Assembly (NCBI RefSeq): GCF_031200575.1
Contig: NZ_CP133597.1
Span: forward strand, 310,001-374,000
Length of the DNA: 64,000 bases
Reading direction: 5' to 3'
DNA from: Ferroplasma sp.
Lineage (GTDB): Archaea > Thermoplasmatota > Thermoplasmata > Thermoplasmatales > Thermoplasmataceae
Each line of letters opens with the position of its first letter. Within the stretch, counting starts at the first letter, position 1. Positions 3,077 to 22,255 of the stretch are shown piece after piece. The notes below the pieces were generated by a model. The model worked only from the letters and a program-made list of their open reading frames with translations, was not told the DNA's origin and ran no database searches. A program made the position numbers and the translations under genes.

Positions 3077-4605
3077 CTGACTGGGAAATAATAGGAAAGG
3101 CTACACAGTTTATAGCCGAGGAAATGGGTGTTGCACTGAAAAGATCTGCCATTTCTCCCAACATAAGGGAGAGAATGGATCATAGTTGTGCCGTTCTTGA
3201 TGCCGATGGCAGGATCATTGCGCAGGCAGAACATATACCTGTCCATCTTGGGTCTTTTAAAATCGGGTCCAGAAATATTATTAATTACATGCGTGAGCAC
3301 GGTGTAACATTAAAGGAAAATGACATGCTCATAACAAACGATCCCTACATATCTGGGACACATCTCAATGATGTCACAATCATAGCACCTGTTTACCACA
3401 ATGGTAAAATATTCTGCTATGTAATAAACAAGGCACACAACGTTGATGTCGGGGGTCCTGTTTTCGGAAGCCTTAACCCGGATGCAAGAAATCTCTACCA
3501 GGAGGGCCTCATCATACCGCCGGTTATTATTACCGACGATATAATTAAGATAATCCTGGCAAATTTCAAGGATCCTGAAACTGCAAGGGGGGACCTGAAC
3601 GCACAGATATCTGCAAATAAAATGGGTATAAGCAGGATAAATGAGTTAAAATCAAAATACGGTGCGGATGAGATCCTCTCATCCTGGAATTCCCTTCTTG
3701 AACATTCACGGGAACTTTCACTGATGGCGTTAAAATCATGGCAGCCCGGGGAATACTCTGCTGAGGACTATCTTGAAAAGGGAATCGAGAAGATCAATAT
3801 AGATGTAAACCTTAAAATTAGTGGCGAGGGCGTTATAGCTGATTTTGAGGGCACACATGGTGAGATAGAATACCCACTCAACGCAGTTGAGGGTGTAACA
3901 TTTTCAGCAGTGGCGTATGCCATAAGAAGTGCAATGCGCTATTCCATACCTACAAATGATGGTTTCTACTCTATTATTACAATTAAAGCGCCACACAGAT
4001 CCCTGGTAAACCCCGAGAATAATTACCCGGTTTCCGGAGGAAATGTTGAAACCACACAGAGAATAGCAGATGTTACACTGAGGGCATTGAGTGAATTTCT
4101 GGATTATATACCGGCAGCCTCATCAGGTACAATGATGAATATGATGCTGGGCGGCAAGATAGGGAATAAATACTGGTCTTACTATGAAACCATAGGTGGC
4201 GGAAATGGAGGGAGGTATGATTCCAATGGAGAATCTGGCATACACAGCAATATGACAAATACCCTGAATACACCTGTGGAAATCGCCGAAAAGGAATATC
4301 CCTTCTTCTTCACAAGAAACAACCTGAGAAAGAATAGCTATGGCAAGGGAAAATACCACGGCGGAGAGGGAATCGTGAGGTCATTTAAGGTGAGAAGCAG
4401 GACATACATATCTGTAATTGCAGACAGGTTCATAATACCGCCATGGGGACTCAGGGGAGGATTCCCTGGAAAAACAGGAAAGCTATATATAATCAGCAAT
4501 GGAAAGAAAAAATCCATGCCCAGCAAGTTTTCCACTGTGCTGGAAGAGAATGATGAGGTTATAGTAGAAACTCCTGGAGGGGCAGCATATGGAGAAAAGA
4601 AATAG
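3073..4605 (+). CDS. hyuB: Hydantoinase/oxoprolinase subunit B (HyuB family)
   Basis: A 510-residue protein that aligns by eye with HyuB/5-oxoprolinase beta subunits: it opens WEIIGKATQFIAEEMG, has ERMDHSCAVLDADGRI (about residue 33), NDPYISGTHLNDV (about 90), and a Gly-rich C-terminal GKGKYHGGEGIVRSF segment. It works as a heteromeric partner of the upstream HyuA in ATP-dependent ring opening of a cyclic amide or a related carboxylation. The 4-bp overlap with hyuA supports a stoichiometric complex. The gene stops with TAG, and a promoter for the next gene follows. Substrate unknown; 5-oxoproline (pyroglutamate) is a reasonable guess in a peptide-eating organism, but that is inference. Confidence 0.9.
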   Translation: MTDWEIIGKATQFIAEEMGVALKRSAISPNIRERMDHSCAVLDADGRIIAQAEHIPVHLGSFKIGSRNIINYMREHGVTLKENDMLITNDPYISGTHLNDVTIIAPVYHNGKIFCYVINKAHNVDVGGPVFGSLNPDARNLYQEGLIIPPVIITDDIIKIILANFKDPETARGDLNAQISANKMGISRINELKSKYGADEILSSWNSLLEHSRELSLMALKSWQPGEYSAEDYLEKGIEKINIDVNLKISGEGVIADFEGTHGEIEYPLNAVEGVTFSAVAYAIRSAMRYSIPTNDGFYSIITIKAPHRSLVNPENNYPVSGGNVETTQRIADVTLRALSEFLDYIPAASSGTMMNMMLGGKIGNKYWSYYETIGGGNGGRYDSNGESGIHSNMTNTLNTPVEIAEKEYPFFFTRNNLRKNSYGKGKYHGGEGIVRSFKVRSRTYISVIADRFIIPPWGLRGGFPGKTGKLYIISNGKKKSMPSKFSTVLEENDEVIVETPGGAAYGEKK

Positions 4606-19229: not shown

Positions 19230-20729
19230 ATGTTCAACATATCATATCCGGTATGGGATAGTGCAATGTTCGCTTATACAATATCCTCGCACATACTGCT
19301 TGTGTCCCTTAGTATGGGACTGGCAATTATGGTCACAATTGCAGAATTCCTTGCACTGAAAAAGAAGGATAAGTATTATGATACGCTGGCATATAAACTT
19401 TCAAAGGCCCTGGTTATTTTCTTTGCCGTGGGTACAGCCTCAGGAACAGTAATGGCAATGGAGTTGTTCCTGTTCTGGCCAGCGTTTATGAAGCTTGTTG
19501 GTGAAGTTGCCATGGGGCCATTCTATGTGGAGGTATTTTCATTCCTTCTTGAGGCCATAGCCCTTCCAATGTACGTATACTTCTGGAAGGACTTCAAGAA
19601 TAGATGGGAGCACTGGGGTTTAAGCCTTGCAGTGACTATAGGAACCTACCTCTCTGCTTTCACTGTTACAGAAATAAATGCGTGGATGAACACACCTAAT
19701 GGATTCAACGTGGAGAAATTTGTAACAACAGGAGCTGTTACAAACGTGAACCCATTTGCACCCTTCATAACAGCGTCCACTGCAGCAGAAGAACTTCATA
19801 TGTCCGGAGCAGTTTATTATGCCGGAATTGCTATGATACTGGGTTATCTTATATATAAATACATGAAGACAAACAACATGCCAGAAAAAATGATTTACAG
19901 AAGAGGCATAAATATAGCCGCAGTTTTCATGATACTCGATATTATATATCTGGGCATAACAGGATCCAACGAGCTGTCCACATTAATGGTTATAGAGCCA
20001 ATAAAATACACTGCGCTGGAGCTTGACTTACACGCAACTGTAGGAACATCCTTTGCTACAATGGCACCCGAGCACATATTTGGAATACTGATAAACCATA
20101 AACTGGCATATGCGCCATCACTTCCTTATGCCCAATCACTGCTCGCCTTTCCATTGACATTCGGCAAGGGAAGCATTCCTGGACTAATTCCGTTAACCAC
20201 GTATAAAGGGGTTACTGATTACGGTGTATGGCCACCATACGCTGTTCACGACACACTGGATATCATGGTAGGATTTGGTGTTTTGATGGGCTTCTACTGG
20301 CTTTATGTTGTAGTACAGTACTTCAGGAAAAAAGATCCGTTGAGCCACAGATTCACCCTACTTGGCGGTATGGTTGTTTCAATAATGGGTGTGCTTACAA
20401 TGGAGGATGGCTGGTACACTGCTGAGGTTGGCAGGGTTCCATTCATTATTAGATCTCCTGTCCCCGGCGGCTTCGTCGTAAACGGGGTCAAGTATTATGG
20501 TACCATGACAATAGCACAGGCTGCCTCAACATCTCCAATTGTGTTCCCGCTTGGCATAGCCATTATAGCGTTCTATTTGATCATCTTCCCGGTAACCTTC
20601 TACTTTGCGGCAAAGGTTATGAAACTATCAAATGTGGAGGAAGATCTTAAGCTGGGAGAAGACGATATCAAAATGGAAGAGGAAAGAAAGAACAGAAAGG
20701 GCGTTACAGCAAAGGCAGGGATGAGGTGA
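19230..20729 (+). CDS. cydA: Cytochrome bd-type quinol oxidase subunit I
   Basis: 499 residues, about nine membrane helices. His21 (ISSHILLVSLSMG) and His190 (EELHMSGAVYYAG) match the heme-ligand positions, and Glu101/Glu108 in helix 3 (YVEVFSFLLEAIALPMYVY) match conserved acidic residues of the heme b595/d site. The periplasmic Q-loop region is short, the typical non-E. coli form. It transfers electrons from quinol to O2 with high affinity and is a membrane terminal oxidase. cydB follows after 5 bp with a GGTGA site in the cydA tail. Confidence 0.94.
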   Translation: MFNISYPVWDSAMFAYTISSHILLVSLSMGLAIMVTIAEFLALKKKDKYYDTLAYKLSKALVIFFAVGTASGTVMAMELFLFWPAFMKLVGEVAMGPFYVEVFSFLLEAIALPMYVYFWKDFKNRWEHWGLSLAVTIGTYLSAFTVTEINAWMNTPNGFNVEKFVTTGAVTNVNPFAPFITASTAAEELHMSGAVYYAGIAMILGYLIYKYMKTNNMPEKMIYRRGINIAAVFMILDIIYLGITGSNELSTLMVIEPIKYTALELDLHATVGTSFATMAPEHIFGILINHKLAYAPSLPYAQSLLAFPLTFGKGSIPGLIPLTTYKGVTDYGVWPPYAVHDTLDIMVGFGVLMGFYWLYVVVQYFRKKDPLSHRFTLLGGMVVSIMGVLTMEDGWYTAEVGRVPFIIRSPVPGGFVVNGVKYYGTMTIAQAASTSPIVFPLGIAIIAFYLIIFPVTFYFAAKVMKLSNVEEDLKLGEDDIKMEEERKNRKGVTAKAGMR

Positions 20730-20734
20730 ATTAA

Positions 20735-21808
20735 ATGACAAACTTACTTTATGGCATAAATTTCGACGTGCTCTTTTTAATCGTGGTAATAGCATCAATG
20801 GTTACAATGTTTGCAACCGAGCTAATGGCAGTGGTTCCCATAGCAACAAGGTTCAGGGATAATAAGATACGTGTCAACGTTCTTTCATACATCGTCCCTG
20901 TATGGGAGGTTGTAGGTACATTCTTCGTCCTGTGGCTTGTGGATATGGAAAATATAATACCAATACTGATGCCATCAATATCATATGCACTGTTTCCATT
21001 ATTTGCAGTATTCATATTTTTCCTGGTTACGCGGAACTCCTTTATAATATATGCAGAATTCGTATGGCATGAGAATAAATACTTTGATGAAAGGAAGTTA
21101 TATGTTATATATTCAGTGGCAACATTCATAATGGGAATTATGGCATTATCAATACTCGCTGCTATAGCGAGTGGTTACGGCGTACATCTTTATGGATTCG
21201 GAACAGAATCAGCAATAGCTTACTCGAGCAGTTATACAAACTTTGGTGTTTTCTATTCACATCTTGGGGTTATAGGGTTCATTATAGGCGCATTGATCCT
21301 GGCGAATGGAATAGGAATGGTATTCTACAGGCTTTCTGACATAAAAACCGCCCTTGGCAGATTCATGCCCCTGATACTGGTTATAATAGGGCTGGCAATA
21401 TTTATGCCATCCTATTATTCTATCACATCAAAGGACTATACAGTTAATTCGTCCCTGATAATAATACCCATAATACTGGCTTTAATCATACCAATACTCT
21501 ATGCATTCAGGCAGACAACCTATATCGCTTCATATAAGCCATTCGTTATACTTGTTACAATAATATCACTAACTTTCATTGAATTGAGGGAATACCCATA
21601 CGTATTCGGAAATGCCAATATTTCAGCCTATATACCGGCAGTAACAACTGATTCTGCTATGGAGTACCTGGCTTTTATAATCTCCGTTGTGGGCGGAATA
21701 TGGCTGGTTCTGATGATGATATATTATGGTTATGTATCAAATCACAGAATTGCTGGGCTTATACCGAAACGCCCGGATGAAAATAAAAATCCCGCGCCAA
21801 AGCAATAA
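20735..21808 (+). CDS. cydB: Cytochrome bd-type quinol oxidase subunit II
   Basis: 357 residues with eight to nine membrane helices; position directly after cydA and size fit CydB. Sequence match to CydB is weaker than for CydA, as is usual in Thermoplasmatales. NSFIIYAEFVWHEN (near 97) and GFIIGALILANG (about 177) are recognisable family-like segments. It binds no heme itself and supports the di-heme site of CydA. No cydX-like or CydDC genes are adjacent. Confidence 0.85.
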   Translation: MTNLLYGINFDVLFLIVVIASMVTMFATELMAVVPIATRFRDNKIRVNVLSYIVPVWEVVGTFFVLWLVDMENIIPILMPSISYALFPLFAVFIFFLVTRNSFIIYAEFVWHENKYFDERKLYVIYSVATFIMGIMALSILAAIASGYGVHLYGFGTESAIAYSSSYTNFGVFYSHLGVIGFIIGALILANGIGMVFYRLSDIKTALGRFMPLILVIIGLAIFMPSYYSITSKDYTVNSSLIIIPIILALIIPILYAFRQTTYIASYKPFVILVTIISLTFIELREYPYVFGNANISAYIPAVTTDSAMEYLAFIISVVGGIWLVLMMIYYGYVSNHRIAGLIPKRPDENKNPAPKQ

Positions 21809-21846: not shown

Positions 21847-21919
21847 GGGGCTGTGGGGTAGCTTGGTATCCTACGGGCTTTGGGAGCCTGAGACTCCGAT
21901 TCAAATTCGGGCAGCCCCA
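21847..21919 (+). tRNA. tRNA-Pro (anticodon TGG)
   Basis: The full cloverleaf can be drawn. Acceptor GGGGCTG pairs with CAGCCCC; anticodon stem CGGGC/GCCTG (one G-U) encloses loop TTTGGGA, so anticodon TGG; T-stem TCCGA/TCGGG encloses TTCAAAT. Discriminator base is A at 21919. CCA is not encoded and no intron is present. Confidence 0.95.
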
Positions 21920-21976
21920 TTATTCAATATTATAATATCTTATAAGATTAATATACAATAAAATAATAATCAAATA

Positions 21977-22038
21977 CCGCGATGATGATATTTATACAAA
22001 AATGAAAAAATGATTAATGACGGGCAAGCTGAGCGGTT
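21977..22038 (+). ncRNA. Box C/D sRNA candidate
   Basis: Between tRNA-Pro and the CDGSH gene a 62-nt segment has a terminal stem ACCGC (21977-21981) / GCGGT (22034-22038), a perfect box C ATGATGA (21983-21989) and a perfect box D CTGA (22030-22033). The guide next to box D reads ATGACGGGCAAG; by the box D plus five rule it would direct 2'-O-methylation of a C. Eight bases of it are complementary to GCCCGUCA, the universal decoding-site sequence of 16S rRNA (E. coli C1402 region), but the three bases nearest box D do not pair. Internal C'/D' boxes are degenerate. No experimental support is available here. Confidence 0.6.
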
Positions 22039-22045
22039 AAAAATT

Positions 22046-22255
22046 TCACTCTTTTTTATAAAATGAGGTTACCTCTATTCTGTTGCCTTCATGATCGTAG
22101 AGATATAACTTGTCGCCCTCATCGGTGGTTTTCATGTGATGGCCATCGCAGTATGGCTTGTTCTCTGAAAGGCCACAGGCGCACAGATGCAATTCTTTAT
22201 CTCCAACTTTTATCATATACGGCTTGTTTCTTTCATGCATTACTATTCTGGACAT
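22046..22255 (-). CDS. CDGSH iron-sulfur domain protein
   Basis: 69 residues. Cys25, Cys27, Cys36 and His40 lie in the pattern C-x-C-x2-S-x3-P-x-C-D-G-x-H, the 2Fe-2S binding motif of CDGSH (mitoNEET-type) proteins. A single minimal domain without membrane anchor, probably a cytosolic redox or cluster-transfer protein. A TATA-like AATTTATAG lies about 27 nt upstream on this strand, so the message is probably leaderless; the promoter region is shared with the divergent nnr gene. Confidence 0.93.
   Translation of the reverse strand: MSRIVMHERNKPYMIKVGDKELHLCACGLSENKPYCDGHHMKTTDEGDKLYLYDHEGNRIEVTSFYKKE

Follow-up and report, generated by a model that had tools for sequence, protein, structure and literature searches.

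A box C/D small RNA of Ferroplasma and its relatives with a predicted 2'-O-methylation target at C1402 of 16S rRNA

The locus, its neighbours and the parts of the small RNA

The window, a stretch of 64,000 nucleotides, comes from a 1.86-Mb single-contig Ferroplasma genome. Between a tRNA-Pro gene with anticodon TGG (21847-21919, plus strand; ARAGORN, with an Rfam tRNA score of 53.4 bits) and a convergent downstream gene for a CDGSH-type iron-sulphur protein (22046-22255, minus strand; Pfam PF09360, E 2.9e-10) lies a spacer of 126 nt, 62 nt of which are taken up by a box C/D sRNA (21976-22037, plus strand). The first-pass annotation had given the spacer as 62 nt and had placed the RNA at 21977-22038; the first figure was too small and the coordinates were off by one. 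The CDGSH gene is not thought to be part of the sRNA's function. Further back, positions 19230-21808 hold a gene for subunit I of cytochrome bd oxidase (PF01654) and then a 357-aa membrane ORF that has no hit in Pfam and may be a divergent subunit II.

The sRNA reads ACCGC G ATGATGA TATTTATACAAAA ATGA AAAAA TGATTA ATGACGGGCAAG CTGA GCGGT, all of its parts lying on the plus strand. The 5' arm of its terminal stem, ACCGC (21976-21980), pairs with the 3' arm, GCGGT (22033-22037), and the evidence for both arms is the same. Just inside the stem are box C, ATGATGA (21982-21988), which is kept in nearly all homologues, and box D, CTGA (22029-22032), which is invariant in a 16-sequence alignment. These boxes and the 5-bp stem are present as the first-pass annotation described them. 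Two further elements were absent from that description: a box C', TGATTA (22011-22016), exactly 12 nt before box D, and a degenerate D' box, ATGA (22002-22005), which is CTGA in most other genera. Box C and the D' box enclose a degenerate D' guide, TATTTATACAAAA (21989-22001), whose complementarity to helix 27 (h27) of 16S rRNA is gone. The 12-nt D guide, ATGACGGGCAAG (22017-22028), is assigned by pairing and by guide-target covariation.

This layout matches that of archaeal C/D sRNAs: an RUGAUGA box C and a CUGA box D near the ends with a terminal stem (kink-turn), internal C'/D' boxes with guides of 10-12 nt, here a 12-nt D guide behind C' and, in Ferroplasma, a degenerate D' (ATGA, 13 nt), and an rRNA-complementary guide with a Watson-Crick G-C pair at +5. 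A core-protein search that covered fibrillarin and Nop5 found both encoded in the genome (E 6e-61, and E 3e-33 for the Nop domain). We also searched both strands for five Watson-Crick stem pairs with RUGAUGA and CUGA at the spacing of the sRNA; this pattern occurs once in the 64-kb window, at the sRNA itself, versus 0 occurrences in 60 dinucleotide shuffles. Chance matches to the guide pattern in Bacillus, Rhizobium and Paenibacillus were ruled out, as they have neither box C nor the stem. An Rfam search of the sRNA returned no family at its gathering threshold; the best score, 25.1 bits against a cut-off of 45, was for sR1 (RF01152) and reflects generic box similarity. A literature search, with most subscription journals outside its scope, did not turn up any account of this RNA from Thermoplasmata. 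Judged from its sequence, the molecule appears to be of an ordinary kind, and the evolutionary evidence for its predicted target is unusually good.

The distance between the sRNA and tRNA-Pro varies among relatives. In Acidiplasma and the sister genus g13 (G001, G002, G003, G054, G055), the sRNA stem begins 2-3 nt past the discriminator base of tRNA-Pro, and in three other Ferroplasma-genus genomes the gap is 10-16 nt. Such gaps leave no room for a promoter, so that a tRNA-Pro-sRNA dicistron is the natural reading there. Dicistrons of this kind have been described for tRNA-Pro in Thermoproteus tenax, tRNA-Val in Nanoarchaeum equitans and tRNA-Ser in Ignicoccus hospitalis (PMC7994747), and the sRNA directly behind tRNA-Pro in Acidiplasma and g13 resembles them. 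In contrast, the gap in the window is 54 nt and contains a TATA-like element, CTTATAAGATTAATATAC (21939-21956, plus strand), a putative sRNA promoter ending about 20 bp before the stem. Six Ferroplasma-genus genomes have a similar element at the same distance. Two genomes keep the element with tRNA-Pro about 770 bp upstream (G020, G021), and in another that has it (G022) no tRNA-Pro was found within the 2.8 kb examined. Given the 54-nt gap and an element kept where the tRNA is so far off, expression from an own promoter is the more likely reading for the window, with read-through from the tRNA possible. Elsewhere in the order, the sRNA is unlinked to a tRNA or apparently separately promoted. 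A sigma-70 promoter scan was disregarded because it uses a bacterial model unsuited to archaea. The earlier suggestion that the sRNA could be co-processed with tRNA-Pro thus holds in part: from the gene arrangement, co-processing is likely in Acidiplasma and g13 but less likely in the window species.

Conservation across Thermoplasmata

By DNA search, eight further genomes of the same genus, and neighbouring genera too, carry the element with its boxes and D guide intact. The first-pass annotation had proposed comparing this spacer among relatives, and the boxes are kept in every relative found that retains the tRNA-Pro neighbour. A first covariance model, built from 16 sequences, had matches in 99 of the 117 genomes of the order, including 48 of 51 good genomes and 31 of 33 genera; on inspection, the three weakest of these matches (G077, G080, G066) were false members. 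The good genomes of the order with no match to this model were G027, G089 and G096. For G027, which belongs to the same genus and is 96% complete, neither an sRNA match nor the CDGSH gene was found, so that either the locus has been lost or the assembly has a gap there. A second covariance model, run over the class Thermoplasmata, had matches in 265 of the 300 genomes. Of the 175 good genomes 162 had one, as did 84 of the 91 genera, and across these 84 genera the homologues occupy unrelated genome positions.

The terminal stem covaries. Among 91 distinct homologues, changes occur on both sides at all five pairs, and 97.8% of stem cells are paired. Double-changed cells number 68, where shuffles gave 15.1 and slid controls 2-21, in an alignment fitted to the covariance model, which gives some favour to the stem. 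A MAFFT alignment of the first 16 sequences has double changes at three of the five pairs; in the same sequences C' is TGATTA or TGATGA, 12 nt before box D. In the wider set, box D has a single variant, CCGA (G091). Conserved boxes together with compensatory stem changes bear out the original assignment of this stretch as a C/D sRNA.

Some observations from these searches stand by themselves. The second model gave two matches in the window's own genome, the listed one being the present site, and a second C/D sRNA may lie elsewhere in that genome, outside the window. One genome (G040) carries two diverged copies of the sRNA (L111 and L130), whose D guides are AACGACGGGCAGA and ACCGACGGGCAGA with a flanking A. 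In genome G064, a fluoride riboswitch (RF01734, 44.2 bits; L120, 813-884) lies shortly downstream of the sRNA.

The guides and their 16S rRNA targets

Positions +4 to +11 of the D guide (22018-22025) form eight Watson-Crick pairs with 16S rRNA 1401-1408 (ACCGCCCGUCAA), while +2 and +3 are unpaired in the window species. The +5 base (22024) faces C1402 and the +7 base (22022) faces 1404. Both the eight complementary bases and the C1402 equivalent five from box D had been pointed out from the sequence of the window, and both are there. Numbering is anchored on an E. coli 16S copy that reads one below the standard numbering, set by A1492/A1493. The match is the sole 8-bp Watson-Crick match of the D guide in the genome's own 16S and 23S rRNA; 23S, scanned as an alternative, has no such match and was set aside as a target. 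About 0.3 chance 8-bp matches are expected by our estimate in 4.4 kb of rRNA, and eight pairs fall short of the usual prediction threshold of nine (PMC4644070). Taken alone, the 16S match is weak and could be due to chance.

Comparison of guides and targets across genomes is more telling. In 95 guide sequences, positions +4 to +6, +9 and +10 are invariant, the +5 base opposite C1402 among them, while +8 is C or U and +7 is G or A. Most of these archaea have C at 16S position 1404, and some have U. It had been held against the 16S target that +7 is A in some genera and 1404 is usually C. This objection was dropped because the 16S rRNA of those very genomes has U1404, and it became the main support for the target. 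Within the order, +7 is A in 12 of 12 U1404 genomes and G in 40 of 40 C1404 genomes with a readable guide, a count that leaves aside order genomes such as G034, G036, G101 and G112. Beyond the order, +7 is G in all 38 further C1404 genomes of the class among those listed, the count being made without G119, G149 and twelve further U1404 genomes of the class (families f14 and f15). For the U1404 genomes of f14 and f15, among them G145, G135, G258 and G136, A is predicted at +7, as it is for G244, the sole U1404 member of its genus among the genomes listed. On a 16S tree built without site 1404, guide +7 and 1404 both switch five times and agree in every row. A sign test on independent pairs gives 5/5 with p 0.0625, the minimum possible for five pairs, and a Fisher value of 5e-12 for +7 against 1404 ignores relatedness. 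With five pairs only, the strength of the evidence lies in the complete concordance and the pairing logic rather than in the p value. Predicted energies of the guide-target duplex are -16.8 kcal/mol for C1404 with G at +7, -15.3 for U/A, -14.6 for U/G and -10.6 for C/A. The claim of a 16S target at C1402 thus stands on firmer ground than the eight pairs alone would give it.

The change at 1404 has a counterpart within the ribosome. All 12 U1404 sequences of the order also have A1497, so that the 1404-1497 pair of helix 44 (h44) changes from C-G to U-A. While C-G is the pair in most of the archaea compared, at least five lineages of the order have U-A, and so do further genomes that belong to families f14 and f15 (16S loci L065, L072, L208, L209, L210 and L239-L243). 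A complete and similar C/D sRNA also lies on a Candidatus Micrarchaeota MAG contig (JALWQW010000001.1; L314, about 3385-3440, minus strand), flanked by a gene on either side. Its stem differs, its D guide is ATGACAGGCAGG and +7 is A, from which we predict that the 16S rRNA of this bin has U1404.

The D' half has a history of its own, as seen in a comparison of D' guides at sRNA loci L075-L174, made without one genome with an irregular box C (G037). Most genera have a canonical CTGA D' box and a 12-nt D' guide, and in most genera other than Ferroplasma and its closest relatives this guide is TTCAGCCT plus 3-4 nt, complementary over 8-10 bp to 16S 899-908 in h27, with G902 at +5. In Ferroplasma, Acidiplasma and g13, the 16S rRNA carries G903A, which would weaken the D' pairing from -17.5 to -10.3 kcal/mol as predicted, and the D' regions are AT-rich and non-complementary, with a degenerate ATGA box. 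The D' guide is also gone, though its target is intact, in genera g5 and g15 and in one genome of g9. These comparisons suggest that the ancestral sRNA was a double guide with a predicted D' target at G902, that the D' guide was lost several times, and that the window's RNA can be read as a former double guide now acting through its D half only.

Proposed working, rival readings and known counterparts

We conclude that the 62-nt sRNA is very probably a C/D guide for a predicted 2'-O-methylation of 16S C1402 in the decoding centre. Going by what is known of the family, the 5-bp stem would close boxes C and D into a kink-turn for L7Ae, and Nop5 and fibrillarin would join the L7Ae-bound sRNA. The D guide would then pair with 1401-1408, on the decoding-site strand of h44, and fibrillarin would 2'-O-methylate C1402 (E. 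coli numbering) opposite the fifth guide base. With its ancestral h27 target gone, the RNA would act as a single guide in the Ferroplasma lineage. In the window species, it would be expressed from its own TATA-like promoter, again as expected from the rules of the family.

A genuine C/D sRNA at this site might act mainly as a folding chaperone, holding 1401-1408 apart from 1491-1501 as assembly proceeds, while any methylation would be secondary. The pairing always spans h44 nucleotides whose partner strand changes with them, archaeal guides have been proposed to act as chaperones too (PMC4644070), and covariation tests pairing rather than catalysis. However, an invariant +5 base in 95 sequences and the known occurrence of Cm at C1402 in all three domains (PMC11542601) point to methylation, and we consider a mainly chaperoning role improbable. 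It is less probable still that the sRNA is directed chiefly at some other RNA, be it a tRNA or 23S rRNA, and that the 16S match is incidental. An 8-bp rRNA match does have an appreciable probability of arising by chance, and the target scan covered 16S and 23S rRNA; yet an incidental match would hardly track 1404 through five switches without exception, which strongly disfavours this reading, and the genome's own 16S and 23S offer no second 8-bp Watson-Crick match.

AT-rich surroundings and a degenerate D' half could also be taken to mean that there is no RNA gene here at all, only a stretch of AT-rich spacer that looks C/D-like by chance, or the trailer of a tRNA. Against the 0 of 60 shuffles, the homologues at unrelated positions in 84 genera and the covarying stem, we give this idea next to no credence. 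A guide that nearly all genomes of an archaeal class have kept, and that has followed changes in the decoding centre on five independent occasions, is natural evidence that methylation of C1402 is selected for; here evolution identifies a target where an 8-bp match alone would not. A covariance model is now available for annotating this guide.

Cm at the C1402 equivalent has been reported in E. coli, yeast, human, Arabidopsis and Pyrococcus abyssi (Cm1369) (PMC11542601 Table 2). Reports of this methylation come from all three domains; bacteria make it with protein enzymes, eukaryotes with guide RNAs. E. coli C1402 is methylated by RsmI/RsmH (m4Cm1402) and the Arabidopsis nucleotide by guide U43 (PMC11542601). 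The bacterial enzymes 2'-O-methylate the same 16S nucleotide as predicted here, but they are stand-alone proteins that use no guide RNA (PMC11542601).

The closest known counterparts are archaeal sR12, yeast snR70 and human U43; the present sRNA places the C1402 equivalent at +5, as expected of a guide of this group. Gaspin et al. predicted that sR12, known from Pyrococcus and Sulfolobus, guides the snR70-equivalent site, the E. coli C1402 equivalent (PMC3511168). The literature found describes sR12 in these two genera only, and the likeness lies in the predicted site; the Thermoplasmata RNA differs in having its own D' history at G902 and a D guide that follows changes at 1404. A seven-species survey without Thermoplasmata found predicted h44 sites to be sparse (PMC4644070). 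Yeast snR70, human U43 (SNORD43) and AtU43 (Rfam clan CL00059) guide Cm1639, Cm1703 and Cm1645 of 18S rRNA, respectively, the same nucleotide (PMC11542601, PMC3511168). The SNORD43 model of Rfam, however, scores the sRNA at 13.1 bits (cut-off 45), with a match that starts 30 nt inside it. By analogy, the sRNA and snR70/U43 would share a function, and homology between them, as with sR12, is only conjectural. We tentatively raise the idea, which we hold to be rather doubtful, that the sRNA is the Thermoplasmata branch of one sR12/snR70/U43 RNA predating the archaeal-eukaryotic split, its guide flipping with each flip of the h44 1404-1497 pair from C-G to U-A. If this were true, Cm1402 would have been selected strongly enough for three sites on two RNAs to change together. 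Common descent of the archaeal and eukaryotic Cm1402 guide RNA, as represented by sR12, snR70 and U43, now becomes testable.
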